NCBI GenBank assembly: GCA_021107455.1
Contig: JAIOSU010000194.1
Span: 1-54,528, forward strand
DNA length: 54,528 bases
Source of the DNA: Clostridiales bacterium
GTDB taxonomy: Bacteria > Bacillota > Clostridia > Peptostreptococcales > Acidaminobacteraceae
Reading direction: 5' to 3'
How positions within the stretch are numbered: the stretch's first letter is position 1; each line of letters starts with the position of its first letter. Below, piece by piece: positions 25,186 through 54,528 of the stretch. Under the pieces are notes generated by a model. It had not been told where the DNA came from and did not search any database. It saw nothing but the letters and a program-made list of their open reading frames with translations. The position numbers and the translations under genes are program-made.

Positions 25186-25194
25186 GAGGCCACT

Positions 25195-27200: not shown

Positions 27201-27203
27201 ACT

Positions 27204-35614: not shown

Positions 35615-35623
35615 TACAGCCTC

Positions 35624-36808: not shown

Positions 36809-36821
36809 AAACTTCCTCCTC

Positions 36822-36860
36822 AAAAAAACATACCCACGGGAACCCAAAGGTTCCCATGGG
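36822..36860 (-). terminator. Terminator-like hairpin just before the CoA transferase gene
   Basis: On the minus strand CCCATGGGAACC and GGTTCCCGTGGG form a 12-bp stem (one G-U pair) with a four-base loop, followed after four bases by TTTTTTT. The ribosome binding site of the CoA transferase comes only 2 bp after the T-run. It can end the upstream catabolic transcript or act as an attenuator for the maturation genes. Confidence 0.75.
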
Positions 36861-38969: not shown

Positions 38970-38986
38970 CTCATCATCTCCTTTGG

Positions 38987-39166
38987 TTATTTATTTGATT
39001 TCAATTTATCAAGTAAGGCAACGAGTTTTGCATTGCCGCCTGCACGTGGTCTCCAATCCATCTGAACCACCGGAACTTCTTGTTTCTTAAGATCCTTTGA
39101 AAAAGATTCAAGCCCCATATTGATGACTTTCAAGTCTTGGCTGAATAAACGATCGATTCTATTCAT
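38987..39166 (-). CDS. 59-residue protein between DUF1116 and FdrA genes
   Basis: A small ORF with ATG 39166 one base after the fdrA stop, AAAGGAG six bases before it, and a TAA at 38987. The sequence begins MNRIDRLFSQDLKVINMGLE and contains VVQMDWRPRAGGN, then a Lys/Leu-rich end. I recall a similar stretch (VIN-GL-F, V--V-WRPPAGG) fused to larger FdrA/DUF1116-type proteins in other bacteria, so this is probably a free-standing domain of the same complex. Its ribosome site, position and lack of any gap make it a real gene. Function is unknown. Confidence 0.8.
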   Translation of the reverse strand: MNRIDRLFSQDLKVINMGLESFSKDLKKQEVPVVQMDWRPRAGGNAKLVALLDKLKSNK

Positions 39167-39167
39167 C

Positions 39168-40721
39168 TTAAGCTCCTTTCTTATTCAGTTGATCCATGAT
39201 TTTTTGAACAAGACGAACGGCTTGTGCGTTTGAAGGCATTACTATGAATCCTTCAGCCTCAAGTACGCTTTGTGATGCTTTCAAATCTTGAGGATCACCC
39301 TCTGTTCCTGTGATAGATGCAACGTAAATCACATTGTTGTCAAGTTTCTTATTCACTTCATGAATGGCATCTGCAACTTCTTTTGCAGGATTTTCATGTG
39401 AACCGTAACCCAAGACTACATCTACAAGTACAACAGCGACATCATTTGCAATGTCAGTCTTGAAACGATCAGATCTGGTTGAAGGATCGATCATCGGGTG
39501 AGGTCTTCCTACTGTGAACTGATCTTCACCTAGGTCAAGACATACATGCCCAGAAAGTGTGGTTAAATTCTCAATGGCGTATTCAGGAGAGAGAGGAATA
39601 TTGGAATAAATGCCTCCAAATGATTGACCAAGCATTTTCATTGCTTCATCTGCCAAGGTTCCCCCTGTGAATAAACCTCTGAAATATTTTTGCTCAGGTT
39701 TCAGTGCTGCTACTTTTGAAGTCACAACCTTATCAATTGCTTCATCCGATAATGAGAATCCGGTGAAATCCACTGGTGTCTCTCCTTTTGCAAGAGCCAC
39801 AGCTTTGTATGCTGCATCTTCCAGAGTCAGACATGGATATGCTCCAGCAGCTTTGATTGCCTCGATGTCTCCACCAATGAAATCTACTACAACGGGTTTC
39901 TTTGTCTCGGAGACTTTACCCAGAATTTTCTCTGCTACTTCAGGTGATGGCGGTTTAGAAATCAATACGATAACCTCTGTGGACTCATCTCTCATCAGTG
40001 CTTCAAAACCTTGTAGCATCATCAATCCACCAATTTCAGATTTAAGATCACGGCCACCGGTTCCGATAACTTGCGATAAACCTGAACCAAGTTTATCAAT
40101 CAAAGTGCTCACTTCTTGAGTTCCAGTTCCTGACGCTCCAACGATTCCAATAGGTCCTTTTTTGACAACATTTGCGAATGCGAGTGGTACACCATTTATA
40201 ATAGCGGTTCCACAGTCCGGTCCCATCATCAAAAGTCCTTTATCAACAGCTTTTTGTTTGAGTCTAAGTTCAGCTTCAACAGATACGTTGTCTGAAAAAA
40301 GCATAACGTGCAAATCGTTATCAAGCAGTCTTGATACTTCACCTTCTGCATACTGACCTGCAATTGATACAACAGCCATGTTTGCCTCCGGCATCATCTC
40401 AAGCGCGGACTTGATTGTGGCCGGTCTGTAATCACTACCTGCTGAAGACTTTTTCTCCTTCAAAAGTCCATTGACACGTTCCACAACTTGCTCCATAATC
40501 GCTTCGTCAACCACATCTGCTGAGATGAAGAAGTCATTAGGAGAAAGTTCATCTAGTTTCTCACTGCCAAGTCCTAAATTGTTCGACAGTTCTTTGTTCA
40601 AATCGGTACCCATTCCCACCATGACATCTTTGACACCTTCAATATTTTTGACTTCTTTGGAAATCAACATAAGTGTCACGGAATCATAGTAAGAATTTTT
40701 TCGGACCTCATAACAAATCAT
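39168..40721 (-). CDS. fdrA: FdrA-family protein, acyl-CoA-synthetase-like
   Basis: A 517-residue protein related to E. coli FdrA and to the alpha subunit of succinyl-CoA synthetase. It starts with NSYYDSVTLMLISKEV, carries a nucleotide/CoA-binding-like glycine motif GIVGASGTGTQEVSTL near residue 195, GTGGRDLKSEIGG near 220 and LDLGEDQFTVGRPHPMIDP near 395. FdrA proteins are part of the allantoin-catabolic gene set and have been linked to oxamate carbamoyl transfer with YlbE and YlbF. The ATG follows AAAGGAGG. It lies 24 bp after the DUF2877 gene in the same operon. Confidence 0.9.
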   Translation of the reverse strand: MICYEVRKNSYYDSVTLMLISKEVKNIEGVKDVMVGMGTDLNKELSNNLGLGSEKLDELSPNDFFISADVVDEAIMEQVVERVNGLLKEKKSSAGSDYRPATIKSALEMMPEANMAVVSIAGQYAEGEVSRLLDNDLHVMLFSDNVSVEAELRLKQKAVDKGLLMMGPDCGTAIINGVPLAFANVVKKGPIGIVGASGTGTQEVSTLIDKLGSGLSQVIGTGGRDLKSEIGGLMMLQGFEALMRDESTEVIVLISKPPSPEVAEKILGKVSETKKPVVVDFIGGDIEAIKAAGAYPCLTLEDAAYKAVALAKGETPVDFTGFSLSDEAIDKVVTSKVAALKPEQKYFRGLFTGGTLADEAMKMLGQSFGGIYSNIPLSPEYAIENLTTLSGHVCLDLGEDQFTVGRPHPMIDPSTRSDRFKTDIANDVAVVLVDVVLGYGSHENPAKEVADAIHEVNKKLDNNVIYVASITGTEGDPQDLKASQSVLEAEGFIVMPSNAQAVRLVQKIMDQLNKKGA

Positions 40722-40745
40722 GATTTAGCCTCCTTTATTCATAAA

Positions 40746-41666
40746 TTAGTATTTGCTTAACACCATGGCGCAGTACACTCCGAGCAAGAAATCCGCACCA
40801 GAGGTCGCACCATTGGCCAACACTCGTTTAACCAGAAATTCAAAATTTAAATTGTTACTTATAAAAAGTGATTGAACCACTTTCAAATGATTTTCGGATG
40901 CTCTTCCAAGTGCAACTTGCTTCAGCATCGTTTCACTTACTTTTGTTGTGCGATTGATCGAGAACCTGTAAACATTTTGAGCGAAATCTTCAGTGGCTTC
41001 CATGGAATCTTCACCCATCATTGCACTGGCAATATAAGTTAAGATTACGCCAGTTAAAAAATCATCAGTAGAAGGTGTCAAGCCCGGACCAAATCCGATA
41101 AACTTCGGAAGCCAATCCACAACCTCGTTGAAAGCCTTACGATCAAGACATTTGAGAATTTCTACGAAGACTTCCTGTATGAACTCACAATAAGTGTTCA
41201 TTCTAAGTCCACAAGTTTTTAACCCTAGTCCTTTATACCTTTCAACTGAATCCAATAAAGGTAATATGCCACTCGTCTCGCCACGTTCACACAAAATATC
41301 TCTCAAAAGATTCAGTTTAGTGATTTGCTCCTCTAGATGAAGACCTTTTCCTTTGAGCATCAGAACACAAGGCGTCACAGAAGCATTTGAAAAATCAAGT
41401 TGCATCTGGCTATGAACAAATGTCATTCCACTGGTTGTGATTTCAACCTCGTCATTTGCTAGAACATTTCTAAAACTCGATGATCTGCCAGCTATAACAA
41501 CACTCATTGGTGCCAAATCCTTGTTTTCAGTCAGGAGAGTTATAAGTTCACCAGAATCATCCATAAGATTGATCGCTTCTTTAAATATAGAGTGAACAAC
41601 GTATTTGTTCGATCTGCTGCGAGCGAAGTGATCCTTAAGCTCTTTGGAAATTCTAATTGCGTTCAT
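40746..41666 (-). CDS. ylbF: DUF2877 protein, YlbF-like
   Basis: A 306-residue protein whose signature is GFGPGLTPSTDDFLTGVI near residue 190, characteristic of DUF2877, with GATSGADFLLGVYCA near the C-terminus. E. coli YlbF belongs to this family and is encoded with FdrA and YlbE. It follows the PucR regulator gene by 10 bp and is the first of the three. Ribosome site GTGGGGG precedes ATG 41666. The role within a carbamoyltransferase-like complex is inferred from this conserved trio. Confidence 0.85.
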   Translation of the reverse strand: MNAIRISKELKDHFARSRSNKYVVHSIFKEAINLMDDSGELITLLTENKDLAPMSVVIAGRSSSFRNVLANDEVEITTSGMTFVHSQMQLDFSNASVTPCVLMLKGKGLHLEEQITKLNLLRDILCERGETSGILPLLDSVERYKGLGLKTCGLRMNTYCEFIQEVFVEILKCLDRKAFNEVVDWLPKFIGFGPGLTPSTDDFLTGVILTYIASAMMGEDSMEATEDFAQNVYRFSINRTTKVSETMLKQVALGRASENHLKVVQSLFISNNLNFEFLVKRVLANGATSGADFLLGVYCAMVLSKY

Positions 41667-41676
41667 AGCGCCCCCA

Positions 41677-43377
41677 CTATTTCTTAATTAAGTCCAATTT
41701 GATAACATCCATTATTTTTATAGCTATATGCACATTGAGTGATACATCGGGATTACTGAAATCAATATTTCCAATTTCTTTGATCCGTTGCATACGATAT
41801 ATCACTGTATTGTAATGCGTATACATTTCTTCAGATACCTTTTTGAGATTGCATCCACAGGAATAGTACATCTTAAGGGTATTTAGGAGCTCAGCATCCT
41901 TGTCCCTGTCGTAGTTGACTATAGGACCAAGGACTTCCATGAAAAACTGAACAAGTTCCGGTTGAATGCTTTCATTGGATAGAATTCTATATATGCCCAA
42001 ATCATCAAAATGAAGTGCATTTTGATCTGAATTGCTGAGTTCCAGTTTGTGAATAGCTCGTTCCGATTCTTTGTAGCTTTTATGAAGCATGCCTAGTGGC
42101 GAATAAACTCGACCTATTCCAATGTGTATCTTTTTGTCGATGTTTTCAAATTTTGCAAAATTTGTTAATTCCTTGGAAAAAGAAATCATGTCATTTTTGC
42201 TTTCTTCAGGAGAGGCATACGGATCAAAACTGAGTAAAAATATGACTCTGTCACTTTTATTTCCGTAAAGTAGCGCGCCCTTATAATGTCTTTGCATCCT
42301 CTCAACAACACTGACCAGTTTAGAGTTAAGCTGCTTCATGATTTGAGTGTTGTTTGGAGTCATTCTTACATCATATGGAGCGTCCACTGTTTTAACCAAT
42401 ACCACACCGTGTGCTTTGTTTCTATCAAAATCAAAATAATTGGATTTTTCGATTGCCCTCTGTTGTTGACTCTCTTGGGGCGATAACAATTCCTCGATAA
42501 ATTCAATCTTATGTTTGTTTTCATTCTCATAAATAGATAATTTTTTTGTTGAATGGAGTGCAATAAGTGATACTGCTGCCTGAATCATGAATAAAGTCTT
42601 CTCTTCGACTTTCTCATCAATATTCCAAATGATGACCTGCCCGTAAAGGACTTCTTCCGAGAAAATCGGAATCATCAAACGCTTCACCGGATGACCATCT
42701 ATAACATCCACAGCTGTTTCAATACCTTGGTCTTTATAAATTCTTCTGAATTTATCAGTACGTTTAAAAAGCATTTTGTTGACAATTTCTTCGATTTCAC
42801 CTTCAAGTTCTTGATTTGAACTTATGACGAAATCCTTGAACAATTCTTCTGTGATTGCCACCGGAGCCGAAACGACCTCCCCAATCATGTCGCATATCTC
42901 CCTCAAATCGCCACCCCTAAGCATGATATCTTTGAGTTGATTGTTGAATGCGTCAATTTGGATCAGCAAATTGGTCTGGTTGCTAACTACTGTAGTAAGA
43001 ACAGAAGTGATCAAATCACCGAAAGATATATCCATTGGTATCTTAATAATTGGAAATCCTAACTGATCTGAAAGTGTGATGACTGATGCAGGCAATTCTT
43101 CGATATAACGTTTCATTTTGATTCCAAGTCCAGCGACTCCGATTTCATGCATTTTCGGAATCAGTTCATTTAACTTGAAAACATTGTCTTTTATTGAATA
43201 TGCAGTAGTAAGTAAGAGTTCTCCAGGTTGAAGCCACTGGACGATGTCGGGAACTTCCATGACATTGACTTTGGTAACCGGTCTCGACAGGCCGTTTGAA
43301 CCACTAATAACTTCACACCCCTCAAAAGCTTCAAGAGAAATAATTTCGCTCAGTCGAACTCCCATTTTATTTTGCAT
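41677..43377 (-). CDS. PucR-family transcriptional regulator
   Basis: A 566-residue regulator. The N-terminal PucR domain starts GVRLSEIISLEAFEGCEVISG and includes VPDIVQWLQPGELLLTTAY. The middle part has a CdaR/GGDEF-like region (KIHIGIGRVYSPLGMLHKSY). The C-terminal helix-turn-helix contains LKMYYSCGCNLKKVSEEMYT. B. subtilis PucR activates purine catabolism genes with allantoin-type effectors. ATG 43377 has GGGAGG seven bases upstream and is preferred to the in-frame codon at 43395. It heads the catabolic operon and shares an upstream motif with the hydroxylase operon (43468 and 48519). Confidence 0.92.
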   Translation of the reverse strand: MQNKMGVRLSEIISLEAFEGCEVISGSNGLSRPVTKVNVMEVPDIVQWLQPGELLLTTAYSIKDNVFKLNELIPKMHEIGVAGLGIKMKRYIEELPASVITLSDQLGFPIIKIPMDISFGDLITSVLTTVVSNQTNLLIQIDAFNNQLKDIMLRGGDLREICDMIGEVVSAPVAITEELFKDFVISSNQELEGEIEEIVNKMLFKRTDKFRRIYKDQGIETAVDVIDGHPVKRLMIPIFSEEVLYGQVIIWNIDEKVEEKTLFMIQAAVSLIALHSTKKLSIYENENKHKIEFIEELLSPQESQQQRAIEKSNYFDFDRNKAHGVVLVKTVDAPYDVRMTPNNTQIMKQLNSKLVSVVERMQRHYKGALLYGNKSDRVIFLLSFDPYASPEESKNDMISFSKELTNFAKFENIDKKIHIGIGRVYSPLGMLHKSYKESERAIHKLELSNSDQNALHFDDLGIYRILSNESIQPELVQFFMEVLGPIVNYDRDKDAELLNTLKMYYSCGCNLKKVSEEMYTHYNTVIYRMQRIKEIGNIDFSNPDVSLNVHIAIKIMDVIKLDLIKK

Positions 43378-43467
43378 GATTATACCTCCCAACAATATTA
43401 TACTAAATATTCTGTGTTCTTTTTATACTATTTATTGTTGTTGAGATACAATGTTTTGTGTAATATT

Positions 43468-43547: not shown

Positions 43548-44780
43548 TTATTCTGGTAAAACTACGTTTAAGAAAATGCCGACGATTGCTGCTAGTGCCA
43601 TACCTTCAATATTGAGAGATAATGCGCCTATGTTGATCGGAAGCACCGCTCCACCAAGTCCTAAAACGACTATGACAGCCGCGATGATCAAGTTTCTAGA
43701 TTTGTTGAAATCCACTTGGTTTTCAACAAGTGTTCTAGCGCCGATAGCTGCGATCATACCGAAAAGAATTATAGAGATACCACCAATTACTGCTGTTGGG
43801 ATAGTTCCAATCAGTGCGCCTAATTTAGGTACAAGACCTAAAATTATTGCAAATACGGCTGCGACTCACATAATCTTTGGATCCCAAGCTTTTGTAAGTG
43901 CCAAAACGCCTGTATTCTCAGAGTAAGTAGTATTCGCAGGTCCACCAAACATTGCTGAAACTGATGTTGCAAGACCATCACCAAGAAGTGTTCTGGATAA
44001 ACCAGGCTTTTTGATAAAGTCTTTCTCTACAGTTGCGCCAATTGCTACGACGTCACCGATGTGCTCAACCATTGTAGCAAGAGCTATAGGTGCTACCGTC
44101 AATATGGCATCGAAATTGAATTTAGCAAGTGTAAATGCAGGAATTCCAAAGAATGCCGCGTCATTAATCGGAGAGAAATCAATCAAGCCGAATACTGCAG
44201 CAATGATATAAGATCCAATCAAACCTATGATTACAGGAATAACTTTTAAGAAACCCTTTGCAAATACACTGACGACAGTTACGATTGTAAATGCAACGAT
44301 AGCAAGCAACCAGTTCTCTGAAGCCATTCCAACTGCAGTAGGTGCAAGCTTAAGACCGATAACAAGAATGATCGGACCTGTAACTATTGGTGGGAAAAAT
44401 TTGATGATTCTATCAGTACCGAAAACTTGCATCAAACCTGCAAGAATCAGGTAGATGATACCGGCGACAACAATGCCGCCTCGCGCATAATCAAGTCCGT
44501 GACTGCTTGCCACAGCGAGCATTGGTGCAATGAATGCAAATGAAGATCCTAAGAATGCAGGTACCATACCACCTGTTACAAGGTGGAATAAAAGTGTACC
44601 TACACCGGCCAAGAACAGTGATACTGAAACGTCAAGACCTGTGATGATTGGAACAAGTACAGTAGCACCAAACATTGTAAATGCGTGCTGTAAGCCCAAT
44701 GTAAGCATTTTTGGTGTTCCGAGTGCTGTTACATCAGTAATTGCGTGCTTATTTACTGAATGCTCATCTTTTTTAGACAT
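43548..44780 (-). pseudogene. Uracil/xanthine permease (NCS2 family), interrupted by TGA
   Basis: One reading frame of 411 codons contains a single TGA at 43868-43866. Before it, 304 residues resemble NCS2 nucleobase permeases (LTLGLQHAFTMFGATVLVPI, the substrate-site loop ATMVEHIGDVVAIG and MFGGPANTTYSENTGV). After it VAAVFAIILGLVPKLGALI, then TAVIGGISIILFGMIAAIGA and a tail to 43548 complete the usual fold. Relatives often have Arg at the stop position, so a CGA-to-TGA change would explain it. Purine uptake fits the PucR and dehydrogenase neighbours. Loss of the last four or so membrane segments would destroy transport unless the stop is read through or is a sequence error. Ribosome site GGGGAGGGG. 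Confidence 0.85.
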
Positions 44781-44813: not shown

Positions 44814-47126
44814 TTAATCGTTGTTTTTCGCCTTGATTGCATTTAAAACTCTTTCTGCAGTCAATGGCATTGTATTTAAGCGAATACCTGTAGCAGCATA
44901 TATCGCATTCGCTATTGCAGGTGCGGTAGGAACCATTGCCGGTTCAGCAACGCCTCTGGCACCAAATGGGCCAGTATCCTCCGGGTTTTCCACAAATTTT
45001 ATGACCATTTCAGGCATATCATCTGCTGTAGGAATCTTGTAATCGACAAATGATGGATTGAGAACTTTACCATCTTTTAGCATTAGTTCCTCAAAAAGTG
45101 CTGTTCCAATACCTTGTGCAATCGCACCTTCCATTTGTCCTTCAAGCAATTGTGGATTCATGACTTTACCGACATCGAATACTGAGACAACTTTGAGAAT
45201 TTTTACTGCCCCAGTCTCGAGATCTACTTCAACTTCAATACCTTGAGCTCCATATGTCCAGAATACAACCGGATGTTCCCCAAGACCGGTTTTTTTGTCT
45301 GCGTTACGAACATTTGGAGGAATGAATGCACCACGACCGATAATCGGTCCGTGAATACCTGATCCATCTTCAAAAGTAAGTCCCAGTGCAAGTTCTGTAA
45401 TCGCAACTTTTCTATCTGGATAGATTTTTGAGACCACATAACCATCTCTAAGTTCCAAGTCGCGTTTGGAGAGTCCTATTTTGATTTGGGCAAGTTCAAG
45501 CAATTGATTCATTGCGTCATTTGCAGCTTCAAATACCGCTCTGCCCGCTGAATAAGTGATTCTAGAAGCGACCGTTTGCCACTCATAAGGTGTTTGATCC
45601 GTGTCACCTGTTCTAATGGTAATTTTCTCAGGTGAAATGGAAAGTACTTCCGCTGCTATTTGTGTCATGACAGTATCAGAGCCCTGTCCGATATCCTGTG
45701 CACTCACAAGTAGATGTGCAGTTCCATCTTCATTAAGTTTGATGATTGCTGAGGATGCCGCATTTGTTGGCATTGATGGAGCCTTCCAACCACATGCGAT
45801 TCCTTTACCTCTTACTTTTGTAGGACTTGTGGATTCGCTTTTCTCATAGAATTTGATTTCTTCTACTGCAATATCCAGACATTCCATCAAACCGGCAACT
45901 TCAACCACTTCACCTGTACCAGTTACACCACCTGGCTTCATTCCGTTGATTCTTCTGATTTCAACCGGATCGATTCCAATTTGTTCAGCTACCATATCGA
46001 GGTTTTGTTCAATACCGAAATGAATTTCACTCATTCCGAAGCCTCTGTACGGTCCTCCTACCGGATGATTTGTATAGACACAATAAGAATCTGTATAGAC
46101 GTTTTCAATATCATAAGGACCTGCTGAAGCATAACCAGCAGCTTTTGCGATGTTTACACCGTACTCATTGTACGCTCCACCATCCCAAATGAATTCATTT
46201 TCCACTGCTATGATCTTACCATCTTTATTGACACCTGTCTTTATTCTCGCATGCAGACCTTGTCTAACATATGCGTTTTCAAACTCATCTTGTCTGGAAT
46301 ATGTCAATTTTACCGGATGATCCGGGAATTTTTTTGCAAAAGGAATCAAAATACCTTCAAGAGTGGTTCCCGCTTTTGATCCAAATCCACCTCCGACTGC
46401 CGGCGAAAGAACGCGCAATCTATTGAGTGGAAGGTCAAACGCCTCTGAAAGTGCTTGTCTCACAGCATAAGGCGATTGACAACTTGCCCAAACTGTCATG
46501 AAGCCATCCGCATCCATTTGGGCAATTGCTGTATGTGTCTCTATTGGCACGTGCTGCACATGCGGTACATAGAAATCATTTTCCACTACAAAATCAGCTG
46601 TCTCAAATGCTTTTTTAGCATCGCCTTTTCTAAGTGTATAATGATTGGAAATGTTCGTTCCTGGAACCGGGAAAAATACTGGTGCCCATTTATATTCTCC
46701 CAAATCAGGGTGAACAAGCGGTGAATCAGGTTTCATGGCATCTTTGGCGTTGGTGACTGCCGGTAACACCTCGTATTCAATATCGATGAACTCAAGCGCA
46801 GATTGGGCGATTTCCTCTGAAATAGCGCAAACAGCCACAACAGCTTCTCCTCTATATCTTACTTTTCCAACAGCTAAAAAGTTCTTGTCTTCAAGGTAAA
46901 GTCCACCACGTTTTGTGAATAAATCTCCCGTAATTATGTCTTTGACACCTTTGATGGCCAAAGCTTTTTCAAAATTGATGCTCAATATTTTTGCGTGTGG
47001 ATGAGGACTTCTCTTTACAGCGACGTAAAGCATTTTTGATAATTTGATGTCATCCACATATTTTAAGGAGCCTGTGACTTTTTTAACTCCGTCGACACGT
47101 TTTACGCTAGTTCCTACAAATTTCAA
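44814..47126 (-). CDS. Xanthine-dehydrogenase-like enzyme, molybdenum-binding subunit (set A)
   Basis: A 770-residue molybdopterin-binding large subunit of the xanthine oxidase family. It starts KFVGTSVKRVDGVKKVTG (domain a/b hammerhead), followed by the cofactor motifs VGGGFGSKAG near residue 255, PVGGPYRGFGMSEI near 365, DIGQGSDTVMTQI near 505, and GPFGARGVAEPAM near 725 with the catalytic Glu. TTG 47126 has AGGAGG eight bases upstream; the in-frame GTG at 47135 overlaps that site. It hydroxylates an N-heterocycle such as a purine using water as oxygen donor. With YqeB/YqeC nearby a selenium-containing site is plausible. The exact substrate is not readable. Confidence 0.92.
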   Translation of the reverse strand: MKFVGTSVKRVDGVKKVTGSLKYVDDIKLSKMLYVAVKRSPHPHAKILSINFEKALAIKGVKDIITGDLFTKRGGLYLEDKNFLAVGKVRYRGEAVVAVCAISEEIAQSALEFIDIEYEVLPAVTNAKDAMKPDSPLVHPDLGEYKWAPVFFPVPGTNISNHYTLRKGDAKKAFETADFVVENDFYVPHVQHVPIETHTAIAQMDADGFMTVWASCQSPYAVRQALSEAFDLPLNRLRVLSPAVGGGFGSKAGTTLEGILIPFAKKFPDHPVKLTYSRQDEFENAYVRQGLHARIKTGVNKDGKIIAVENEFIWDGGAYNEYGVNIAKAAGYASAGPYDIENVYTDSYCVYTNHPVGGPYRGFGMSEIHFGIEQNLDMVAEQIGIDPVEIRRINGMKPGGVTGTGEVVEVAGLMECLDIAVEEIKFYEKSESTSPTKVRGKGIACGWKAPSMPTNAASSAIIKLNEDGTAHLLVSAQDIGQGSDTVMTQIAAEVLSISPEKITIRTGDTDQTPYEWQTVASRITYSAGRAVFEAANDAMNQLLELAQIKIGLSKRDLELRDGYVVSKIYPDRKVAITELALGLTFEDGSGIHGPIIGRGAFIPPNVRNADKKTGLGEHPVVFWTYGAQGIEVEVDLETGAVKILKVVSVFDVGKVMNPQLLEGQMEGAIAQGIGTALFEELMLKDGKVLNPSFVDYKIPTADDMPEMVIKFVENPEDTGPFGARGVAEPAMVPTAPAIANAIYAATGIRLNTMPLTAERVLNAIKAKNND

Positions 47127-47138
47127 GTCTCCCACCTC

Positions 47139-47609
47139 CTACGCTTTATTTTGGTCGGCAACTACTTGGATTGCCTCTATTATTTTTTTATAGCCGGTAC
47201 AACGGCATAAGTTTCCGCTGATGCCTTCTTTGATTTCATTTTCAGTCGGATGTGGATTTTCTTCGAGCATCGCTTTTGCAGTCATAATCATTCCTGGTGT
47301 GCAATAGCCACATTGAAGTGCCGCATTGTCTATGAATGACACTTGAAGAGGATCAAGCTCTCCATCTACTACCAATCCTTCTATTGTTGTAATCTCAGTA
47401 CCATCTGCTTCTACCGCCAGTACGAGGCAAGCATTCAGCGCCTTGCCATTCACAATGATTGTGCATGCACCACATTCACCAGCGCCACAACCTTCTTTAG
47501 CGCCTGTAAGGTCGAAATCTTCTCTGATCATCTTAAGTAGGGTTCTTTGATTATCTACCAAACACTCAACAACTTCGCCATTGAGCGTAAATTCTATCAA
47601 TGTTTTCAT
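47139..47609 (-). CDS. Molybdenum hydroxylase iron-sulfur subunit (set A)
   Basis: A 156-residue protein with two [2Fe-2S] clusters. The plant-type ferredoxin motif is KEGCGAGECGACTIIVNG near residue 38, and the C-terminal helical cluster has QCGYCTPGM near 98 and NLCRCTGYKKI near 137. It passes electrons from the molybdenum site to the FAD subunit. ATG 47609 has AGGAGG seven bases upstream, which overlaps the stop of the FAD-subunit gene. Length and cysteine spacing are normal for the separate small subunit. Confidence 0.95.
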   Translation of the reverse strand: MKTLIEFTLNGEVVECLVDNQRTLLKMIREDFDLTGAKEGCGAGECGACTIIVNGKALNACLVLAVEADGTEITTIEGLVVDGELDPLQVSFIDNAALQCGYCTPGMIMTAKAMLEENPHPTENEIKEGISGNLCRCTGYKKIIEAIQVVADQNKA

Positions 47610-47620
47610 GATTAATCCTC

Positions 47621-48451
47621 CTATAGCCATTCTGTGAGCGCATGGCGAAGCATAACTCCGACCATTTCACGTCTGTACTCTTCCGAAGCTCTGATGTCGC
47701 TGATTGGAGTAACTTCTCCAGTAGCTAATTTGCATGCCTCATCGATAATATCACTAGTCAGTGTCTTTCCAGTTAAAAACGCTTCAGTTTTAGCTAATCT
47801 AACAGGTGTAGGCGCTACAGCCCCACAACTGATTCTATATTCGGATCCTGAACGTATTACAGTGGAACACACAGTGGAAAGATCCACTTCTTTACGACGT
47901 GACATTTTTGTGAATATGCCAAGCGCATCAGGATCTTGTTTAAATGAAATGCCTGTAACGATCTCAGTTGGTTTCAATATTGTTTTTCTAACAAAAACAA
48001 AAAAATCTTTGAGTGGTACAGTCTTTATACCCTCTTCTCCATATATATGGACATCTGCATTTAAAGCGAGAAGCGGTGTTGCTGTATCAGCTAGTGGTGA
48101 AGCGTTGCAAATATTGCCAATACATGTCGCTCTGTTTCTGACTTGTTTCGATCCAACCGACAATGAGGCTTGTGCCAGATATGGATATCTGGTTTTAATG
48201 ACTTCGTTCAATCCCAAATCATTGAGTAATACAGTCGCGCCGATTGTGATACGGTCTTCATCAACTTGAATTTGATCAAGTCCAGGTATTTTTTTGATGT
48301 CCATAACGATTTCTGGTGAAGAGTGACCTTCGCGCATCCTCACTATAAGGTCAGTACCCCCATTGAGTATGGATACATTTCCGTCATGTTTCTTTAACAT
48401 GTCCAACGCTTCTTTTAACGACGTTGGTCTTAAGTATTCAAATGTTTTCAT
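47621..48451 (-). CDS. Molybdenum hydroxylase FAD-binding subunit (set A)
   Basis: A 276-residue flavoprotein of the CoxM/XdhB type. FAD sites are ILNGGTDLIVRMREG near residue 35 and CIGNICNASPLADTATPLLA near 110; the C-terminal CO-dehydrogenase flavoprotein domain starts near 175. ATG 48451 follows GGAGG; the in-frame codon at 48493 lacks a site. It is the first gene of the set A operon (FAD, Fe-S, Mo subunits). A TATAAT on the minus strand at about 48500 may be its -10 box. The divergent VWA gene begins 223 bp away. Confidence 0.93.
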   Translation of the reverse strand: MKTFEYLRPTSLKEALDMLKKHDGNVSILNGGTDLIVRMREGHSSPEIVMDIKKIPGLDQIQVDEDRITIGATVLLNDLGLNEVIKTRYPYLAQASLSVGSKQVRNRATCIGNICNASPLADTATPLLALNADVHIYGEEGIKTVPLKDFFVFVRKTILKPTEIVTGISFKQDPDALGIFTKMSRRKEVDLSTVCSTVIRSGSEYRISCGAVAPTPVRLAKTEAFLTGKTLTSDIIDEACKLATGEVTPISDIRASEEYRREMVGVMLRHALTEWL

Positions 48452-48518
48452 TTTAATGACCTCCAACAATAATTCAGTACGTCTCACACTCATTATATCT
48501 TTTTTTACACATTTATCT

Positions 48519-48531
48519 CATTATTGTAATA
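48519..48531. promoter_or_regulatory. Motif shared with the PucR promoter region, copy 2
   Basis: TCATTATTGTAAT lies about 20 bp upstream of the likely -10 box of the hydroxylase operon, a fitting place for an activator. It resembles 43468-43483. The rest of the 223-bp divergent gap (48452-48674) is AT-rich, and I see no riboswitch-like structure in it. Confidence 0.3.
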
Positions 48532-48674
48532 GACTAAATTTTCAGACGATAAAGTCATTTTATTTAGTAGTAAGCAACAAACATTATTAGTGAATTTGGC
48601 ATTATAATTGTTATCAGATTATGAAGTGTACTTTAGGGTAAACATTTCTACATCATAATAAAGGCGGTGATGTT

Positions 48675-50618
48675 TTGCAAAGCAGAGTAACCCACAACTT
48701 AATGGATGAGCTTATATTCACGGAAACCCTTGCAAACTCAAATTTGTTGAGACAGTTCATCGACAATGGTCAAAGACTCATTCCCGAGTTCGATGTAATT
48801 TCAATGGATCTATATCTTATTCTATACAAAATTGTAATAAAACTCAACTCCGAAGATTCCGTTTCAATGCACGATGTCATTATTGAATCATTCGCCTCAC
48901 ATCCCAGAACTACAATTCTTAGGATGAGGTGCGCAGGTTCAAAAGGTGAATCTTATCTTGCCATGAAACTCCTGCTGGATCAGCTACTCGAAAAACTGAG
49001 AGGAACCGAATTTCTGAGCGAGATGGAAGAGCACATAGAGTCATACAACAATTTATTGTCAAACACTAAAAGTAACGACTTTCAAAACTATGAATTTACC
49101 GATATCCTAAGTTCATTAGAAATCGATATGATCAATGAGATTTTATCTCTATCCTCCTCTGAAACAGAAGACCCTAAAGATTTTTTAATGACATTGATCC
49201 CACTTCTCAGTAAAAATGACGAATCTTCGAAGCACTCTGATTATTCAGAAGCAGAGCCTGATAAAGCATTACCTTCGATACCTTATAAAAACGAGGATAA
49301 AAAACCACTTACTGACTACATTGAAAAAGTGAGGGAACATCTCGATCAATCAGAAACATCCACAACTGTCGAGGAAGCTCTGGAAGAAGTACTTAGAAAA
49401 GAAGGCGAAGTCGATTCAGATTATGAAGAATATGTCAAAGAAGATCTGGAATCCCGGTTCAAACCTTTTATAAAATCCTTTTCCATCGGTGAATCACAAG
49501 TAGCCACTCCGTTCCACAAACAAATGGACACTATTGACGACAATGAACATGTGGATGAAAATAAGATCATTGATGGAAAAGCTTCTCCAAAAAGCCCACC
49601 TTCTGAAACCGAGATATTGAAAATGACCCCTGAACTTAAAAATGAACTCAAAGATAAACGCGATGAACTTAGGAATAAGATGGAGTCGCTGGATTGGGAT
49701 GACATTATTGTGGCTACAAGTGAAAAACTCGATCACTTCAACAATCAAATAAAGACGCTTGGTATACCAGGACGTAGTATTTCAGATCTTACATTTGATG
49801 AGATCATATCCCTATATAGTCGCACTAAATCTACCCGATTCATAGAATTCATCAACAAAGTGGGAAAAAACAAAAAACACGCCAGCACCATTGCCTATAA
49901 AAAAAAGCGGGAGAAAATAACGCCACAAGATGGCATACGTTACTCAAACGACATCGATGGACTCATTGAGGATGAATTCATCGGTATCGCACTGGATATC
50001 GATGCATTTGAGAATGACTTTTATGACAGATATCTCAACGACAATCTTCTTACCATTGAGATGGCAGCCAAAAAAGACAAAAGAAAGGGACCTATCATTT
50101 TATGTTACGACGGTTCTGGATCCATGCAAGGAAAGAAGTTCGATGAGACACTTGCTCATATTTTGGCGATTCTGGAAATTTCAAAAATTCAAAAACGGAA
50201 GTTGGTGCTGATCCAATTCGCATCTGCGTCCGAGCCTTTATACATCAAGGAAATCAACCCACTCACAATAACTGCGGGAGACGTGCTGGACATCATGGAT
50301 ACTTTCATCTGTGGTGGCACAGACTTTGAGAAACCCCTCTCCACGGCTATGGAAATCATAAAACAAGCCAAACATAAGAACAGCGACATTTTATTCATTA
50401 CAGATGGTCAATGTGAGATTCATCCGAATTTCAGAGAAAAATTCCTCGAGCTCAAAAGAGAGCGAAAGTTCAAACTCTACACCATAATCATGCATTCATA
50501 TACCTATAACGACTACGGTGACATCGGCCTCATTTCAGATGAGATCCTCGACATCAGAGGCGATAATTTAGGCAATTGGAACAACCTTACAAATCAACGA
50601 TTATACACTTTGATATAG
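48675..50618 (+). CDS. VWA-domain protein, ViaA/CoxE-like
   Basis: A 647-residue cytosolic protein. Residues 1-190 are helical, and residues 190-340 are highly charged and probably flexible. The C-terminal half (from about 470) is a von Willebrand A domain with an intact MIDAS: CYDGSGSMQG (DxSxS) near 478, the GGTDF threonine near 545, and FITDGQ near 575. The start is TTG 48675 after GGTGA; ATG 48702 is an alternative. It precedes the AAA+ ATPase gene by 13 bp, the usual MoxR-VWA pairing. Similar pairs (RavA-ViaA, CoxD-CoxE) act as metalloenzyme chaperones. Position between two molybdenum hydroxylase operons suggests such a role here. Confidence 0.85.
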   Translation: MQSRVTHNLMDELIFTETLANSNLLRQFIDNGQRLIPEFDVISMDLYLILYKIVIKLNSEDSVSMHDVIIESFASHPRTTILRMRCAGSKGESYLAMKLLLDQLLEKLRGTEFLSEMEEHIESYNNLLSNTKSNDFQNYEFTDILSSLEIDMINEILSLSSSETEDPKDFLMTLIPLLSKNDESSKHSDYSEAEPDKALPSIPYKNEDKKPLTDYIEKVREHLDQSETSTTVEEALEEVLRKEGEVDSDYEEYVKEDLESRFKPFIKSFSIGESQVATPFHKQMDTIDDNEHVDENKIIDGKASPKSPPSETEILKMTPELKNELKDKRDELRNKMESLDWDDIIVATSEKLDHFNNQIKTLGIPGRSISDLTFDEIISLYSRTKSTRFIEFINKVGKNKKHASTIAYKKKREKITPQDGIRYSNDIDGLIEDEFIGIALDIDAFENDFYDRYLNDNLLTIEMAAKKDKRKGPIILCYDGSGSMQGKKFDETLAHILAILEISKIQKRKLVLIQFASASEPLYIKEINPLTITAGDVLDIMDTFICGGTDFEKPLSTAMEIIKQAKHKNSDILFITDGQCEIHPNFREKFLELKRERKFKLYTIIMHSYTYNDYGDIGLISDEILDIRGDNLGNWNNLTNQRLYTLI

Positions 50619-50631
50619 GAGGATACGATTT

Positions 50632-51843
50632 ATGAAACCAAACGAACTCATAGCTGCAAGCCAAAAATTACACGATATCCGCAACCACATCGCTTCCAAA
50701 TATTATGAAGTGGATGAATTTGTTACCTGTCTGATGCTATCCATGATCTCAAGGACCCACATGATTGTACTGGGAGAACCCGGGATAGCAAAGTCTGCCA
50801 TTCTAAGAGAGTTTGTGGCTCACATGGATTTCGATCAAGCGAAAGGCACTCCCTATTTTCACATTCAAATGGGCGCTGACATATCCCCAAACAATATTTT
50901 CGGGGCTCCAGACATCGCGTATTTCAAAACACACGGCATTATCAAGCGCCATTACAAAGGTTTTTTACCCGACGCCGTGATAGCCTTTTGCTCTGAATTC
51001 TACAGGGTCAGCGATCAAGTAGCCAACTCTGGTTTATTGACCATACTAAATGAAGGTGAGTTCAAAAATGGAACAGAGACCATAAAAACCAATCTCCGAT
51101 TCTTCATGGCTGACACCAATTTCTTCCCAAAACAAAAGGATGATCTAGATGCCGAGGAAGTCGACTTCAAACTTCAGGCACTTCACGACAGATTCCTGGC
51201 ACGATATCATCTTAAACCTTTAAAAGATCCCGACAATAAAGTCAAGATGATTCTGATGGATGATGATTTGACCTGTGAATCCAGAATCAAATTATCAGAG
51301 CTCATGTTGATCCAAGACGAACTTCCCAATATAAAGATGAGTTCCGAAATAGCAAGAAGCATGGTGACCATCGCCACTCAACTAGAGGGAAGGCACAATA
51401 TTTCCATTTCACCAAGACGATTGAAACTCAGTAGAAATCTGGTCAAAGCAAATGCGATATTTGAAGGTAGAACCCATTGTATCCCAGAAGATTTAAATGC
51501 CCTCCAATTTTCATTCTGGCAGAAAGAAGAGGACATTCCGAAGGTCAAAGAAGTCATTTATGAAACTTTGGATAAACCTGGTAGAGATGCAAAGAAATAC
51601 GAGAAAGTCCTTACATCCATTCTCGACGAATTGGATCGACATATTGAAAATCAAAAGGATTTTCCAAATTTTGATATTGACAAACTTTACAAGCAGGCAT
51701 TATCAGATCTGATGAAACTGATAGAAAATATCTCTACCACTTATAAAGACACTGCACAATATCCAGAAATCAAAAATGTTTTGGAATTCATCGACAATAC
51801 CTATAAAAGACTTACAAATGAACGAATGGCACTTAAAGCGTAA
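50632..51843 (+). CDS. MoxR/RavA-type AAA+ ATPase
   Basis: A 403-residue AAA+ protein. Walker A is GEPGIAKSAIL near residue 48, sensor 1 FFMADTNFF near 160, the arginine-finger region LHDRFLARYHL near 190, and sensor 2 SPRRLKLSRN near 262. The Walker B equivalent reads IAFCSEFYRV, so the usual Asp is Ser while the catalytic Glu remains. A helical tail after 300 resembles the C-terminal extension of RavA. GGAGG lies nine bases before the ATG. It is co-transcribed with the VWA gene upstream and probably remodels a protein together with it. Confidence 0.88.
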   Translation: MKPNELIAASQKLHDIRNHIASKYYEVDEFVTCLMLSMISRTHMIVLGEPGIAKSAILREFVAHMDFDQAKGTPYFHIQMGADISPNNIFGAPDIAYFKTHGIIKRHYKGFLPDAVIAFCSEFYRVSDQVANSGLLTILNEGEFKNGTETIKTNLRFFMADTNFFPKQKDDLDAEEVDFKLQALHDRFLARYHLKPLKDPDNKVKMILMDDDLTCESRIKLSELMLIQDELPNIKMSSEIARSMVTIATQLEGRHNISISPRRLKLSRNLVKANAIFEGRTHCIPEDLNALQFSFWQKEEDIPKVKEVIYETLDKPGRDAKKYEKVLTSILDELDRHIENQKDFPNFDIDKLYKQALSDLMKLIENISTTYKDTAQYPEIKNVLEFIDNTYKRLTNERMALKA

Positions 51844-51861
51844 AAGATAGGAAGAGCCCGC
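51838..51861. repeat. 24-bp direct repeat, left copy
   Basis: This block begins with the last codon and stop of the ATPase gene and ends inside the first terminator stem. It recurs identically at 52019-52042, 181 bp away. The hairpin halves that follow both copies also match apart from an AA/TT loop. Confidence 0.85.
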
Positions 51862-51875
51862 AAGCGGGCTCTTCA
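51850..51875 (+). terminator. Terminator hairpin after the ATPase gene
   Basis: GAAGAGCCCGC-AA-GCGGGCTCTTC forms an 11-bp GC-rich stem directly after the stop. The right flank (AGTCAC) has no T-run, unlike the second copy of the hairpin at 52023. Confidence 0.65.
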
Positions 51876-51894: not shown

Positions 51895-52021
51895 ACTGAG
51901 GCGCTAATAAGTTTCCAATCGTACTGTTTAGAACATAGACATTTGTGGCTAGTATAGTTTCGCTTCGCGAGAACCATACCTACGCCCAATGTTTCGCTTC
52001 ACAAAACATTGTAACTACGCG
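51895..52021 (+). repeat. Short dispersed palindromic repeat, copy B, with hairpin modules
   Basis: It opens with a 22-bp block (21 of 22 identical to copy A at 13690-13669) and ends with AACTACGCG. Inside are two further hairpins with the common core GTTTCGCTTC: 51952-51979, followed by CTACGCC, and 51988-52010, followed by GTAACTACGCG. Copy A lacks these modules. The whole gap between the ATPase and Fe-S genes is this element plus two terminator hairpins. Confidence 0.6.
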
Positions 52022-52042
52022 TAAAAGATAGGAAGAGCCCGC
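52019..52042. repeat. 24-bp direct repeat, right copy
   Basis: Identical to 51838-51861. The two copies bracket the palindromic repeat element, as would a long target-site duplication or a recombination between terminators. Confidence 0.85.
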
Positions 52043-52063
52043 TTGCGGGCTCTTCTTATCTTT
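52023..52063. terminator. Bidirectional terminator
   Basis: AAAAGATA-GGAAGAGCCCGC pairs with GCGGGCTCTTCT-TATCTTTT around a TT loop, a stem of about 19 bp with A- and T-rich ends. It serves the convergent ATPase and Fe-S genes. Confidence 0.82.
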
Positions 52064-52547
52064 TATTACTATTTTTTTCCTGAACATTCTTCTGCGCGAG
52101 GGTCAGTGCCTTTTCTATACCTTCGTATCCAGTACAACGGCATAGATTGGCACTGAGCCAATCTTTCTTTTCCGCTTCGTCTGCATCAGGATTTGTCTCG
52201 AGCAATGCAAATGCGTTCATAAGAAATCCAGCAGTACAAAAACCACACTGGAATCCACCTTCGGATATGAATGCCTTTTGAATCTCGGTATCTTCAAGAC
52301 CTTCTACGGTCAATACTTCTTTTCCTACTGCTTCAACTGCAAGCATGAGACATGCCTTAACAGGTTTTCCATCCATCAAAACCGTACAAGCTCCACAATC
52401 TCCGTTCTCACACCCCGCTTTAGGGCCTGTGTATCCAATCTTTTCTCTCAATACTCTCAGTAATGTATCTTGAGGCATCACAACCACTTCATGGATTTCA
52501 CGATTGACATTCAACTGAATACTGACATTTCCACTATAATGAATCAT
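52056..52547 (-). CDS. Molybdenum hydroxylase iron-sulfur subunit (set B)
   Basis: A 163-residue [2Fe-2S]2 protein. Its first cluster motif is KAGCENGDCGACTVLMDG near residue 45 and the second QCGFCTAGF near 100 with NLCRCTGYEGI near 138. It is clearly different from the set A subunit (for example CENGDC versus CGAGEC), so it serves a separate enzyme. ATG 52547 has GGAGG five bases upstream, while the in-frame GTG at 52553 lies in that site. It overlaps the FAD-subunit gene by 14 bp and is the last gene of its operon. Confidence 0.94.
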   Translation of the reverse strand: MIHYSGNVSIQLNVNREIHEVVVMPQDTLLRVLREKIGYTGPKAGCENGDCGACTVLMDGKPVKACLMLAVEAVGKEVLTVEGLEDTEIQKAFISEGGFQCGFCTAGFLMNAFALLETNPDADEAEKKDWLSANLCRCTGYEGIEKALTLAQKNVQEKNSNKR

Positions 52548-53355
52548 ATGCACCTCCGGTAAATAAAGCGATTTGGTTCTTTAAAAGATGAACTCGGTAT
52601 TCCTTGCTGGCACGCTCATCCGATTTGGCATCTTTTTCAAACAAACCGGCAATTGAACCTACCGGATCAGACCACTCGTCGTACTCATTTCTTGGTATCA
52701 GCTGATAAACCGGAAAACTCGCGAATCCAGATAAACCAACGAATACTTCAGTATCAGAAACACTCATCACCACGTGTAAAACCGGGTAATCGACTTCAGT
52801 GTGTGCCTCCATTCTCTTTGACATCATTTTGCCACCAACTTTTCTAGGGATCATAATCTGATACAAAAATGCATTCGGTGGCAATTTCAATCTTTTATCA
52901 AAAACATCTCTAAGCAAAGATTCATTGATTCCATTCTCATCAACCCATTTTACCAATGAATTCAAGGCCAAAAGTGGGAGAACAGCCTCTCTAAATGGCA
53001 ATTTTCCACAAATGTTTCCCCCGATGGTCAATGCATTTCTGACTGTATGATCAGCGATTTTGTTCAGAATAGACTTCAAAGATTGCAGTTCCGAATGTTC
53101 TATCATCACATTCAGCGGAACATTTGCTCCAACAACGATATATTCATCATCGACAAGGATTTCCGACATTTCGCCAATTCCTTTAAGGTCTATTACCGCA
53201 TCTGCTTTAAATGCACCCTTTCTTAGATTAGTAATCACCTCAGTGCCACCAGAATAATAAAGCGCATTGACTTTATCCTCTTTTAGCGTTTTCATGCATT
53301 CATAGGCTTCTTGAGTTGTCTCTGGTTTAAAGTAATCAAGATTGTATGCGATCAT
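52534..53355 (-). CDS. Molybdenum hydroxylase FAD-binding subunit (set B)
   Basis: A 273-residue flavoprotein subunit. FAD-binding segments are YYSGGTEVITNLRKG near residue 35 and TIGGNICGKLPFREAVLPL near 110. The CxxNxSP-like segment of set A (NICNASPLAD) is here NICGKLPFREA, which may alter flavin or partner contacts. ATG 53355 overlaps the Mo-subunit stop (ATGA) and has GGAGG seven bases upstream. Gene order Mo, FAD, Fe-S differs from set A (FAD, Fe-S, Mo), suggesting independent origin. Confidence 0.9.
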   Translation of the reverse strand: MIAYNLDYFKPETTQEAYECMKTLKEDKVNALYYSGGTEVITNLRKGAFKADAVIDLKGIGEMSEILVDDEYIVVGANVPLNVMIEHSELQSLKSILNKIADHTVRNALTIGGNICGKLPFREAVLPLLALNSLVKWVDENGINESLLRDVFDKRLKLPPNAFLYQIMIPRKVGGKMMSKRMEAHTEVDYPVLHVVMSVSDTEVFVGLSGFASFPVYQLIPRNEYDEWSDPVGSIAGLFEKDAKSDERASKEYRVHLLKNQIALFTGGAYDSL

Positions 53356-54528
53356 CTCTTCACCTCCATTGATGTCTTCCAAACTTTCTCGGGTGTCATT
53401 GGAATCTGATTCATTCCTTTGCCAACAGCTCTTGAAAGTGCGTTTGCGATCGCACCAGGCATTCCAATTACGGATTGTTCCCCAAGACCTCTCGCTCCAT
53501 ATGGTCCATCTTGCTGAGGTGTTTCGAGAAATTTGACTTGATATTCCGGTTCATCGCCATAACGCATGATCTTATAATCTCTAAGAACACCATTGGTGAC
53601 CTGTCCCCTGTCATTGAAGGTGAAACCTTCCATGGTTGTATAACCCATACCCATTGCCATGCCGCCAACAATCTGTCCTCTTGCCAATGCCGGACTAATT
53701 ACTTTGCCGACATCGATGCAACAAACAGCTTTTAATATCTTATATTTTCCTGTGTTTAAATTCACTTCAATTTCAACACCCTCAGCACCAAGTGTCCACT
53801 CAAGATCCGGATGACCTTCTCCGGTCTCTGGATCTAGATCTGTAAGGTGCTTTGCGATATATTTTCCCGAACCAATCACTTGTCCATAGATGGCGTTGCC
53901 ATTTGGGTAGACATATCCTAGCACCACTTCTGAGAGGTTCAGTCCTATTTTAGGTTCATCCGGTACAAAAACACGTTCACCATCCACTTTCAAATCTCTT
54001 TTCGGCACTCTCAATACTGCAGATGCGATTTCTTTGATTTGATTTTCTGCATCCTCACACGCTTCGAGTGTTGCCATCCCAGCCATCATAAGACCTCGAC
54101 TTGCAGCTGTCGCCCAATCACTAGGAGAAACGCTTGTGTCCACTTCCATGACAACATGTACCTTATCCACAGGAATCCCCAAACGTTCTGAAACAATTTG
54201 AGCAAGCCCGGTCTTTGTACCTTGACCGATTTCAACTACGCCAGTGTTTAAATTACAACTGCCATCGGAATTGAACGTAAGAATAGCGCCTGCATCTGTA
54301 TTGGTAGGCATTGCAGGAGCTTTCCAGAGTCCTGAAACACCTTTTACACGAACCGTATTGTTTTCAAGCTGCTGAGTAGCTCCAATATTACCGCCAAGCA
54401 TGGCTCCAACTTCTTCGAAACATTTGATTATATCTCCTGTGCTCTCATTGAGGACACTTTGGACAGGTGTGGTATCATGTGGTTTGACACCGTTTTTTAT
54501 TCTAAGTTCCAGCGGGTCCATATCCAGC
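53352..54528 (-). CDS. Molybdenum hydroxylase large subunit (set B), N-terminus outside window
   Basis: The frame is open to the right edge; 391 residues of the C-terminal half are visible (LDMDPLELRIKNG onwards), while family members have 700-800. Cofactor and active-site motifs present are VEIGQGTKTGLAQI, SDWATAASRGLMMAG, the FDVGKV-like CIDVGKVISPALARGQ, and GPYGARGLGEQSVIG with the catalytic Glu. An apparent ATG at 54521 is internal. It belongs to the xanthine oxidase family like the set A enzyme but has distinct sequence, so it likely acts on another heterocycle or another position of the same one. Confidence 0.92.
   Translation of the reverse strand, partial: LDMDPLELRIKNGVKPHDTTPVQSVLNESTGDIIKCFEEVGAMLGGNIGATQQLENNTVRVKGVSGLWKAPAMPTNTDAGAILTFNSDGSCNLNTGVVEIGQGTKTGLAQIVSERLGIPVDKVHVVMEVDTSVSPSDWATAASRGLMMAGMATLEACEDAENQIKEIASAVLRVPKRDLKVDGERVFVPDEPKIGLNLSEVVLGYVYPNGNAIYGQVIGSGKYIAKHLTDLDPETGEGHPDLEWTLGAEGVEIEVNLNTGKYKILKAVCCIDVGKVISPALARGQIVGGMAMGMGYTTMEGFTFNDRGQVTNGVLRDYKIMRYGDEPEYQVKFLETPQQDGPYGARGLGEQSVIGMPGAIANALSRAVGKGMNQIPMTPEKVWKTSMEVKR

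Follow-up and report, generated by a model that had tools for sequence, protein, structure and literature searches.

A MoxR-type ATPase and VWA protein pair associated with a divergent molybdenum hydroxylase in the Acidaminobacteraceae

Which enzyme is served by a MoxR-type AAA+ ATPase and a von Willebrand factor A (VWA) protein that are encoded beside molybdenum hydroxylases? The question is raised by a 54,528-nucleotide stretch of DNA from a Clostridiales bacterium (GCA_021107455.1, contig JAIOSU010000194.1, positions 1 to 54,528; hereafter the window), which is contig G000:C143 in its entirety, one of the 333 contigs that make up a 3.5-Mb genome. A first-pass annotation had placed such a pair between two molybdenum hydroxylase operons and near an xdhC-yqeB-yqeC-mocA-moeA block, had likened it to CoxDE of carbon monoxide dehydrogenase (CODH), and had proposed that it helps to insert a selenium or sulfur ligand into these enzymes. 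The layout was confirmed by open reading frames (ORFs) and Pfam matches, with the block lying ~13 kb away from the pair. The VWA gene (48675-50618, plus strand; TTG start, 647 aa, with AAAGGCGGTGATG just upstream) and the MoxR-type AAA+ ATPase gene (50632-51843, plus strand; ATG start, 403 aa) were both recovered where that annotation had put them; they are co-directional, with 13 bases between them, and are divergent from the left hydroxylase operon across a gap of 181 bases. Pfam assigns VWA_2 (5e-11) to the first product and bpMoxR (5.8e-28), AAA_lid_8 (1.6e-12) and AAA_5 (7.5e-11) to the second, and the arrangement of a MoxR AAA+ protein adjoining a VWA protein with a metal ion-dependent adhesion site (MIDAS) is that of MoxR/VWA chaperone pairs in general. 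A defence-system role was discarded, as PADLOC gave no match to the pair at 1e-3. The association with a molybdenum hydroxylase is supported by the analysis below, and is narrowed to the left enzyme.

Association with the left hydroxylase

The left operon carries a hydroxylase trio on the minus strand, consisting of the flavin adenine dinucleotide (FAD) subunit (47621-48493) and the [2Fe-2S] subunit (47139-47630), both identified by Pfam and locus comparison, and a 773-aa molybdopterin (Mo) subunit (44814-47135) resembling xanthine dehydrogenase (XDH) and 4-hydroxybenzoyl-CoA reductase. A short-peptide scan across 84,980 species, each represented by a single genome, returned nine relative loci at 56-98% identity, all within the window's own family; named bearers are Acidaminobacter hydrogenoformans DSM 2784 (L007) and Acidaminobacter sp. 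JC074 (L006), and NCBI places A. hydrogenoformans in the Acidaminobacteraceae, Peptostreptococcales. In 8/9 of these loci the pair is directly divergent from orthologues of the same FAD-FeS-Mo trio, a recurrence that argues against chance, and with the window included all nine intact pairs adjoin the trio in this orientation. Identity between the VWA proteins of different genera is just 31-44%. Because every intact copy keeps this enzyme adjacent, the pair is probably dedicated to the left hydroxylase.

The second hydroxylase lies on the minus strand to the right of the pair ([2Fe-2S] subunit, 52056-52553, and FAD subunit, 52534-53382, both by Pfam; Mo subunit, 53352 to the contig end at 54528, which cuts it). 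Its Mo subunit is 38% identical to that of the left enzyme, and the operon adjoins the pair only inside the window's genus (the window, L004 and L005). In five loci from other genera the right flank is visible (L007, L009, L010, L011 and L012) and is different, the genes found 3' of the pair including a membrane transporter (L007), an NCS2 permease (L009), an ABC permease (L010) and an amidase (L012); in L006 the contig ends just after the pair. The setting between two operons thus holds in the window and its two congeners and fails in the five other-genus flanks, and the second hydroxylase was dropped as a conserved partner since its adjacency is not conserved outside the genus.

Profile searches of 41 family genomes recovered ten full MoxR orthologues, window included, together with one 139-aa remnant, and an intact pair is present in 9/41. 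Sampling beyond the family (297 genomes from the order, 391 from the class) yielded no MoxR orthologue, in searches whose first look scored just 4 to 6 candidates in each genome. The class sample gave three weak matches (E 2e-26 to 6e-22); these are RavA-ViaA-like pairs in which the ATPase gene precedes the VWA gene and Walker B is intact, and neighbouring ORFs gave no match to hydroxylase subunits from the window or from its relatives. Orthologues of the Mo subunit, at 66% identity or more against 44% for the next best, occur in 15/41 family genomes and YqeB is over cut-off in 14/41; every genome with an intact pair (9/9) has both. In one further genome (G022, locus L008) it looks as if the pair has decayed along with its neighbouring hydroxylase. 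There the MoxR ORF is whole, the left trio is lost, and the VWA gene is broken, with matches left only to residues 51-164 and 633-687 of the sister's VWA protein; the CoA-transferase lacks its first part, and the 21-kb stretch gave no match to AllG, FdrA, PucR or the hydroxylase subunits and only 27 residues of the cyclase. No Mo subunit above 33% identity is present genome-wide, making G022 the sole genome with a whole MoxR orthologue but without a hydroxylase orthologue.

Correlated evolution was assessed on an RpoB+SelD tree of 40 of the 41 family genomes (G012, in which no marker was found, was left out, and G000, G002, G007, G015 and G034 are placed by SelD columns only). A Pagel-type test of the intact pair against the Mo subunit gave a likelihood ratio (LR) of 17.5 (chi-square p 0.0015; 2x2 counts 9/0/6/25), a value reached by 0/120 simulated nulls, the largest of which was 12.9 with draws limited to 5-16 and 8-22 bearers. 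The same test against yqeB gave LR 17.5 (p 0.0016; 9/0/5/26), and with all ten MoxR ORFs counted the values were LR 19.8 (p 0.00056) for yqeB and LR 12.0 (p 0.018) for the hydroxylase. Because yqeB and the hydroxylase are mutually correlated (LR 19.7), these two signals are not separate. Co-occurrence with a molybdenum hydroxylase, the absence of which had been set beforehand as grounds for giving up the link, holds both as 9/9 adjacency and as correlated presence and loss.

Several observations weigh against a strict dependence. An intact pair is missing from 6/15 hydroxylase genomes: G016 and G039 have the hydroxylase and yqeB, G005 (73% complete), G006 and G013 lack yqeB as well as the pair, and in G019 the hydroxylase is intact at 85%, the MoxR gene is reduced to a C-terminal remnant of 132-139 aa, and no VWA match was found. 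The hydroxylase can live without the pair, which is dispensable in some relatives. The assemblies of both G019 and G022 are drafts. Part of the correlation may stem from physical linkage in one catabolic island, an independent-pairs test offered 4-5 pairs on supported branches, too few for significance (never in the opposite direction among the results listed), and the Walker B change described below could mean a weak ATPase. Linkage, which by itself can produce correlated loss, and the patchy distribution, with five parsimony changes of the MoxR gene on the 40-genome tree, would also fit a pair that has a generic stress or membrane function like that of RavA-ViaA and travels as a hitchhiker in a mobile nucleobase-catabolism island. 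Such a hitchhiker would be expected to occur separately as well, yet the hydroxylase accompanies 9/9 intact pairs. In the five loci of other genera with a visible right flank, the pair forms the outer edge of a conserved block beyond which the genes vary. This explanation is rated very unlikely.

Selenium context and ligand insertion

The markers of the selenium-dependent molybdenum hydroxylase (SDMH) trait, YqeB, YqeC and selD, are all present in the window's genome. YqeB (TIGR03309, 330.3 bits against a cut-off of 220) and YqeC (TIGR03172, 163.2/73.05) are over cut-off in the operon region within the window, where the MocA-like protein (179.8) is just short of its cut-off of 186.45, and selD is over cut-off in the genome (406.6/125). 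As a profiling marker selD proved useless, being present nearly throughout the family (40/41 genomes at E 0.001, 38 of them over cut-off). In 36/38 genomes over cut-off SelD is read through one in-frame TGA (e.g., L091), so that selenocysteine decoding is probable in these bacteria. The partner hydroxylase, an anaerobic enzyme, is itself probably selenium-dependent. Nine columns of the Mo subunit differ by yqeB status, a contrast confounded by phylogeny, and one column differs by pair status among yqeB genomes. Clostridioides difficile needs yqeB to grow optimally on xanthine and urate (PMC11448449).

This context bears directly on the proposal that the pair inserts a terminal selenium or sulfur ligand at Mo, together with XdhC, YqeB and YqeC. 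The nine intact and both decayed pairs all lie in yqeB genomes (11/11), none of the three of 15 hydroxylase genomes that lack yqeB (one of them 73% complete) has the pair, and CoxD is reported to be necessary for sulfuration of the Mo site (PMC4240915). The wider survey points the other way. YqeB was found in 47/391 genomes of the class sample and the pair in the window's own genome only, leaving 46/47 without it (the pair and yqeB samples are taken as the same, being of equal size with agreeing handles). Among 40 yqeB-centred stretches of 9.3-19.9 kb (G016 and 39 stretches from other families, one place in each of 40 genomes, out of 50 places in 47 genomes), none contained a VWA match; only 18/40 of these stretches hold a Mo subunit and several are cut by contig ends. 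Two weak AAA matches in them are a ClpA/B-type protein and a sigma-54 activator. Selenium insertion in general therefore needs no pair, and a role as a general selenium-insertion factor was ruled out by the class sample and the 40 stretches. G016 and G039 lack the pair although hydroxylase and yqeB are present, and G019 has no intact one. Ligand insertion by the pair is thus considered unlikely, and, because class yqeB genomes and stretches do without it, the pair is an accessory of the left hydroxylase in this family and not part of the general selenium-cofactor trait. When papers on that trait were searched for the terms MoxR, AAA and von Willebrand, none of these turned up in the main text.

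Comparison with known MoxR/VWA systems

CoxD-CoxE, with CoxF, likewise combine a MoxR ATPase and a VWA protein beside a molybdenum hydroxylase. In contrast to that system, the window VWA protein gave no match to VWA_CoxE (PF05762) at 1e-3, nor did anything in the whole G000 genome; its XdhC-like gene is 13 kb off rather than contiguous as CoxF is; its setting is yqeB-linked and in a Clostridia-class family; and the left Mo subunit is not CODH-type by model scores (378.6 and 319.6 bits against cut-offs of 950 and 991.15). The best named models for the pair are ViaA and RavA, both under cut-off, and equivalence to CoxDE was abandoned on the PF05762 search and the CODH scores. A candidate second association was also rejected: on contig C78 of G015, a genome that bears the pair as well, VWA_CoxE is over cut-off in a DUF4132-MoxR-DUF5682-VWA_CoxE operon (L169, 4157-11747), presumably YehL/YehP-like, which is separated from an upstream hydroxylase trio of unrelated type by ~4 kb and three other genes.

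The closest system by profile is RavA-ViaA of E. coli. RavA is the nearest solved protein to the ATPase by sequence (E 7e-32), RavA structures 4upb, 3nbx and 6q7l head the Foldseek results for its model, and the best named NCBIfam models are RavA (NF010054) for the ATPase, at 107.6 bits against a cut-off of 681, and ViaA (NF008230) for the VWA protein, at 59.2 bits against 500. Judged by these best matches, the ATPase belongs to the RavA branch, with both proteins far under the curated cut-offs. Only the gross fold of the structure models was used, their quality being modest (mean pLDDT 69.4 and 64.1, with ATPase residues 71-186 under 50). Over residues 299-402 the ATPase model contains nothing but helices, mostly at pLDDT over 80, and the predicted helices 299-313, 315-341, 349-370 and 378-402 could match the triple-helical bundle that follows the AAA+ lid in RavA and is needed for stimulation by ViaA. 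No LARA domain was matched by Pfam in the 403-aa protein. According to PMC10585395, LARA binds LdcI, RavA without LARA is more active, and the isolated RavA AAA+ domain (no bundle, no LARA) is not influenced by ViaA. The pair further differs from RavA-ViaA in its gene order, with the VWA gene first in the window and eight loci and the ATPase first in the RavA-like L050-L052, in its link to one catabolic Mo enzyme, and in its Walker B motif.

The ATPase motifs are taken to be Walker A GEPGIAKS, S121-E122 at the D-E position of Walker B, sensor 1 N163, and R187 within DRF. Walker A, the Walker B glutamate, the sensor 1 asparagine, the DRF arginine and the sensor 2 region are retained across the orthologues. 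The Walker B aspartate position is serine in 10/10 orthologues (FCSEF in nine, FFSEF in one) and aspartate in 18/18 other MoxRs compared (16 general and two RavA-like), and E. coli RavA has D-E; L050 stands outside this table, its ORF as called being without the N-terminus, and VFLDE is visible there. By this comparison the change from Asp to Ser is derived and fixed among the orthologues. In AAA+ proteins the Walker B aspartate binds Mg2+ and the following glutamate is catalytic (PMC9976466), and the serine may make hydrolysis slow or partner-dependent.

The model of the VWA protein has a helical N-terminal domain (~1-136) that is mostly confident, a low-confidence stretch, middle helices (~319-415) and a C-terminal VWA domain (~470-647). 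By sequence profile no PDB chain matched it at 0.001, and Foldseek returned mostly VWA domains, with a chain of the NorQD complex at rank 18. Residues D479/S481/S483, T549 and D577, which we take to be the MIDAS, are invariant in the nine intact proteins; the alignment omits L008, where the gene is broken. This layout resembles that of NorD, with its N-terminal domain, disordered linker and C-terminal MIDAS VWA domain, and the NorD MIDAS is necessary for cNOR activation and not for NorQ binding (both PMC9976466). In NorQ-NorD, too, the VWA partner is of similar size and the enzyme served is a single one encoded in the same operon; the differences are that the window MoxR protein matches RavA best and that client and cofactor are unrelated.

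The reading favoured here, with moderate confidence, is that the pair is a dedicated MoxR/VWA remodelling machine for the divergent FAD-FeS-Mo hydroxylase. MoxR/VWA pairs serving one neighbouring metalloenzyme have precedent in NorQD and CoxDEF (PMC9976466 and PMC4240915). By analogy with NorQD, CoxDE and RavA-ViaA, the ATPase would assemble into the usual AAA+ ring, the VWA protein would dock on it and hold the folded hydroxylase by its MIDAS face, and ATP-driven remodelling would open the enzyme so that its active site can be matured at a late stage or reactivated; the hydroxylase would require this accessory step under some conditions and not always. A more specific version, offered tentatively and regarded as rather doubtful, is that a lineage-specific RavA-branch MoxR subfamily with the fixed Walker B serine has become the dedicated assembly or reactivation machine of an anaerobic selenium-dependent hydroxylase, its altered ATPase working as a slow, partner-gated clamp to keep the enzyme open during ligand loading by YqeB and XdhC. 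The pair might alternatively be a brake or gate, binding the flavin/FeS hydroxylase so as to lower or tune its activity. The RavA-branch sequence and fold of the ATPase, and the dispensability of the pair in relatives, would suit such a regulator, and RavA-ViaA is described as lowering fumarate reductase (Frd) activity through a ViaA-FrdA contact; that effect is itself disputed in the discussion of the same source (PMC10585395), and tracking of yqeB is not obviously expected of a brake, which is held to be improbable. Of the original interpretation, the molybdenum hydroxylase link is kept, and the CoxDE equivalence, the general ligand-insertion role and the partnership with the right operon are not. 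Full-text literature searches for MoxR/VWA with Mo hydroxylase or selenium, in whose scope most subscription papers do not fall, returned only the CODH paper PMC4240915 as relevant, and within that scope the association of this pair with a hydroxylase is not described.

Operon surroundings and significance

In the divergent intergenic region (48494-48674), between the FAD gene and the VWA gene, the motif ACTAAATTTTCAGACGAT at 48533-48550 is kept in several relatives and adjoins a minus-strand promoter-like site of the hydroxylase operon (ATGAGA 48521 / TATAAT 48492). An operator shared by pair and hydroxylase was rejected: the motif, which G019 and, with one difference, the pair-less G039 also retain, may belong to the hydroxylase promoter only. 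The window contains a single copy (0 mismatches), shuffles giving 0.87 at <=3 mismatches, and no second site was found there. One further exact match lies in an unrelated locus, L127.

The top models for the left Mo subunit are 4-hydroxybenzoyl-CoA reductase alpha (580.4 bits) and XdhA (552.4 bits), and it is under the cut-off of every equivalog model listed. It carries the motifs YRGFG, GARGVAE and GGGFGSKA; bovine XDH presumably has GGGFGGKE at the last of these, and YRGFG is taken to be the loop that holds the Cys motif in form I CODH. Beyond the trio, the left operon continues on the minus strand with an NCS2 nucleobase permease (43866-44780; best model uracil permease, under cut-off), a PucR-type regulator (41677-43395, by Pfam), an oxamate carbamoyltransferase-type trio (37707-41666) of AllH (40746-41666), FdrA (39168-40721) and AllG (37707-38969), a cyclase, and a block (31444-36847) of a CoA-transferase III (35624-36847) followed by the selenium/Mo-cofactor maturation genes XdhC (34781-35614), YqeB (33985-34800), YqeC (33201-34040), MocA-like (32627-33256) and MoeA (31444-32754). 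With an NCS2 transporter, PucR and AllFGH alongside, the substrate of the partner hydroxylase is likely a nucleobase-type N-heterocycle. The sharing of one operon region by AllF/G/H-type oxamate carbamoyltransferase genes, a cyclase and a Mo hydroxylase suggests an unusual anaerobic N-heterocycle route. No allantoinase was found among the window ORFs scanned, a scan that left aside 17368-18276, 23276-28178 and others.

Several features of the window appear interrupted. The permease ORF stops at an in-frame TGA after 304 codons, and the 410-aa permease of L004 aligns on through to 43551 at 94%, the TGA being either a nonsense change or an assembly error. A solute-binding protein gene at 21316-23207 is split across two ORFs and the C-terminal part of a membrane dipeptidase is a separate ORF at 28861-29403 (28162-28791 being outside the scan), either through frameshifts or through decay. 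Immediately 3' of the pair is a hairpin (51851-51874), and between the pair and the right operon lies a dispersed ~130-bp repeat (51895-52026), which is bracketed by a duplicated, terminator-like hairpin of ~36 bp (flanks 51838-51874 and 52019-52055). A 218-base stretch with this repeat has 45 matches in its own genome, itself and short partial ones included; the congener L005 has a single hairpin in a 31-base gap there.

How YqeB and YqeC mature molybdenum hydroxylases that are probably selenium-dependent is largely unexplained, and the pair adds a candidate accessory step for such enzymes. The client of RavA-ViaA-type machines is debated, and the genetic tie of one branch to a single Mo/FeS/FAD enzyme makes the question directly testable. 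G016, G019 and G039 provide natural with/without comparisons, and the fixed Walker B serine yields a specific enzymological prediction.

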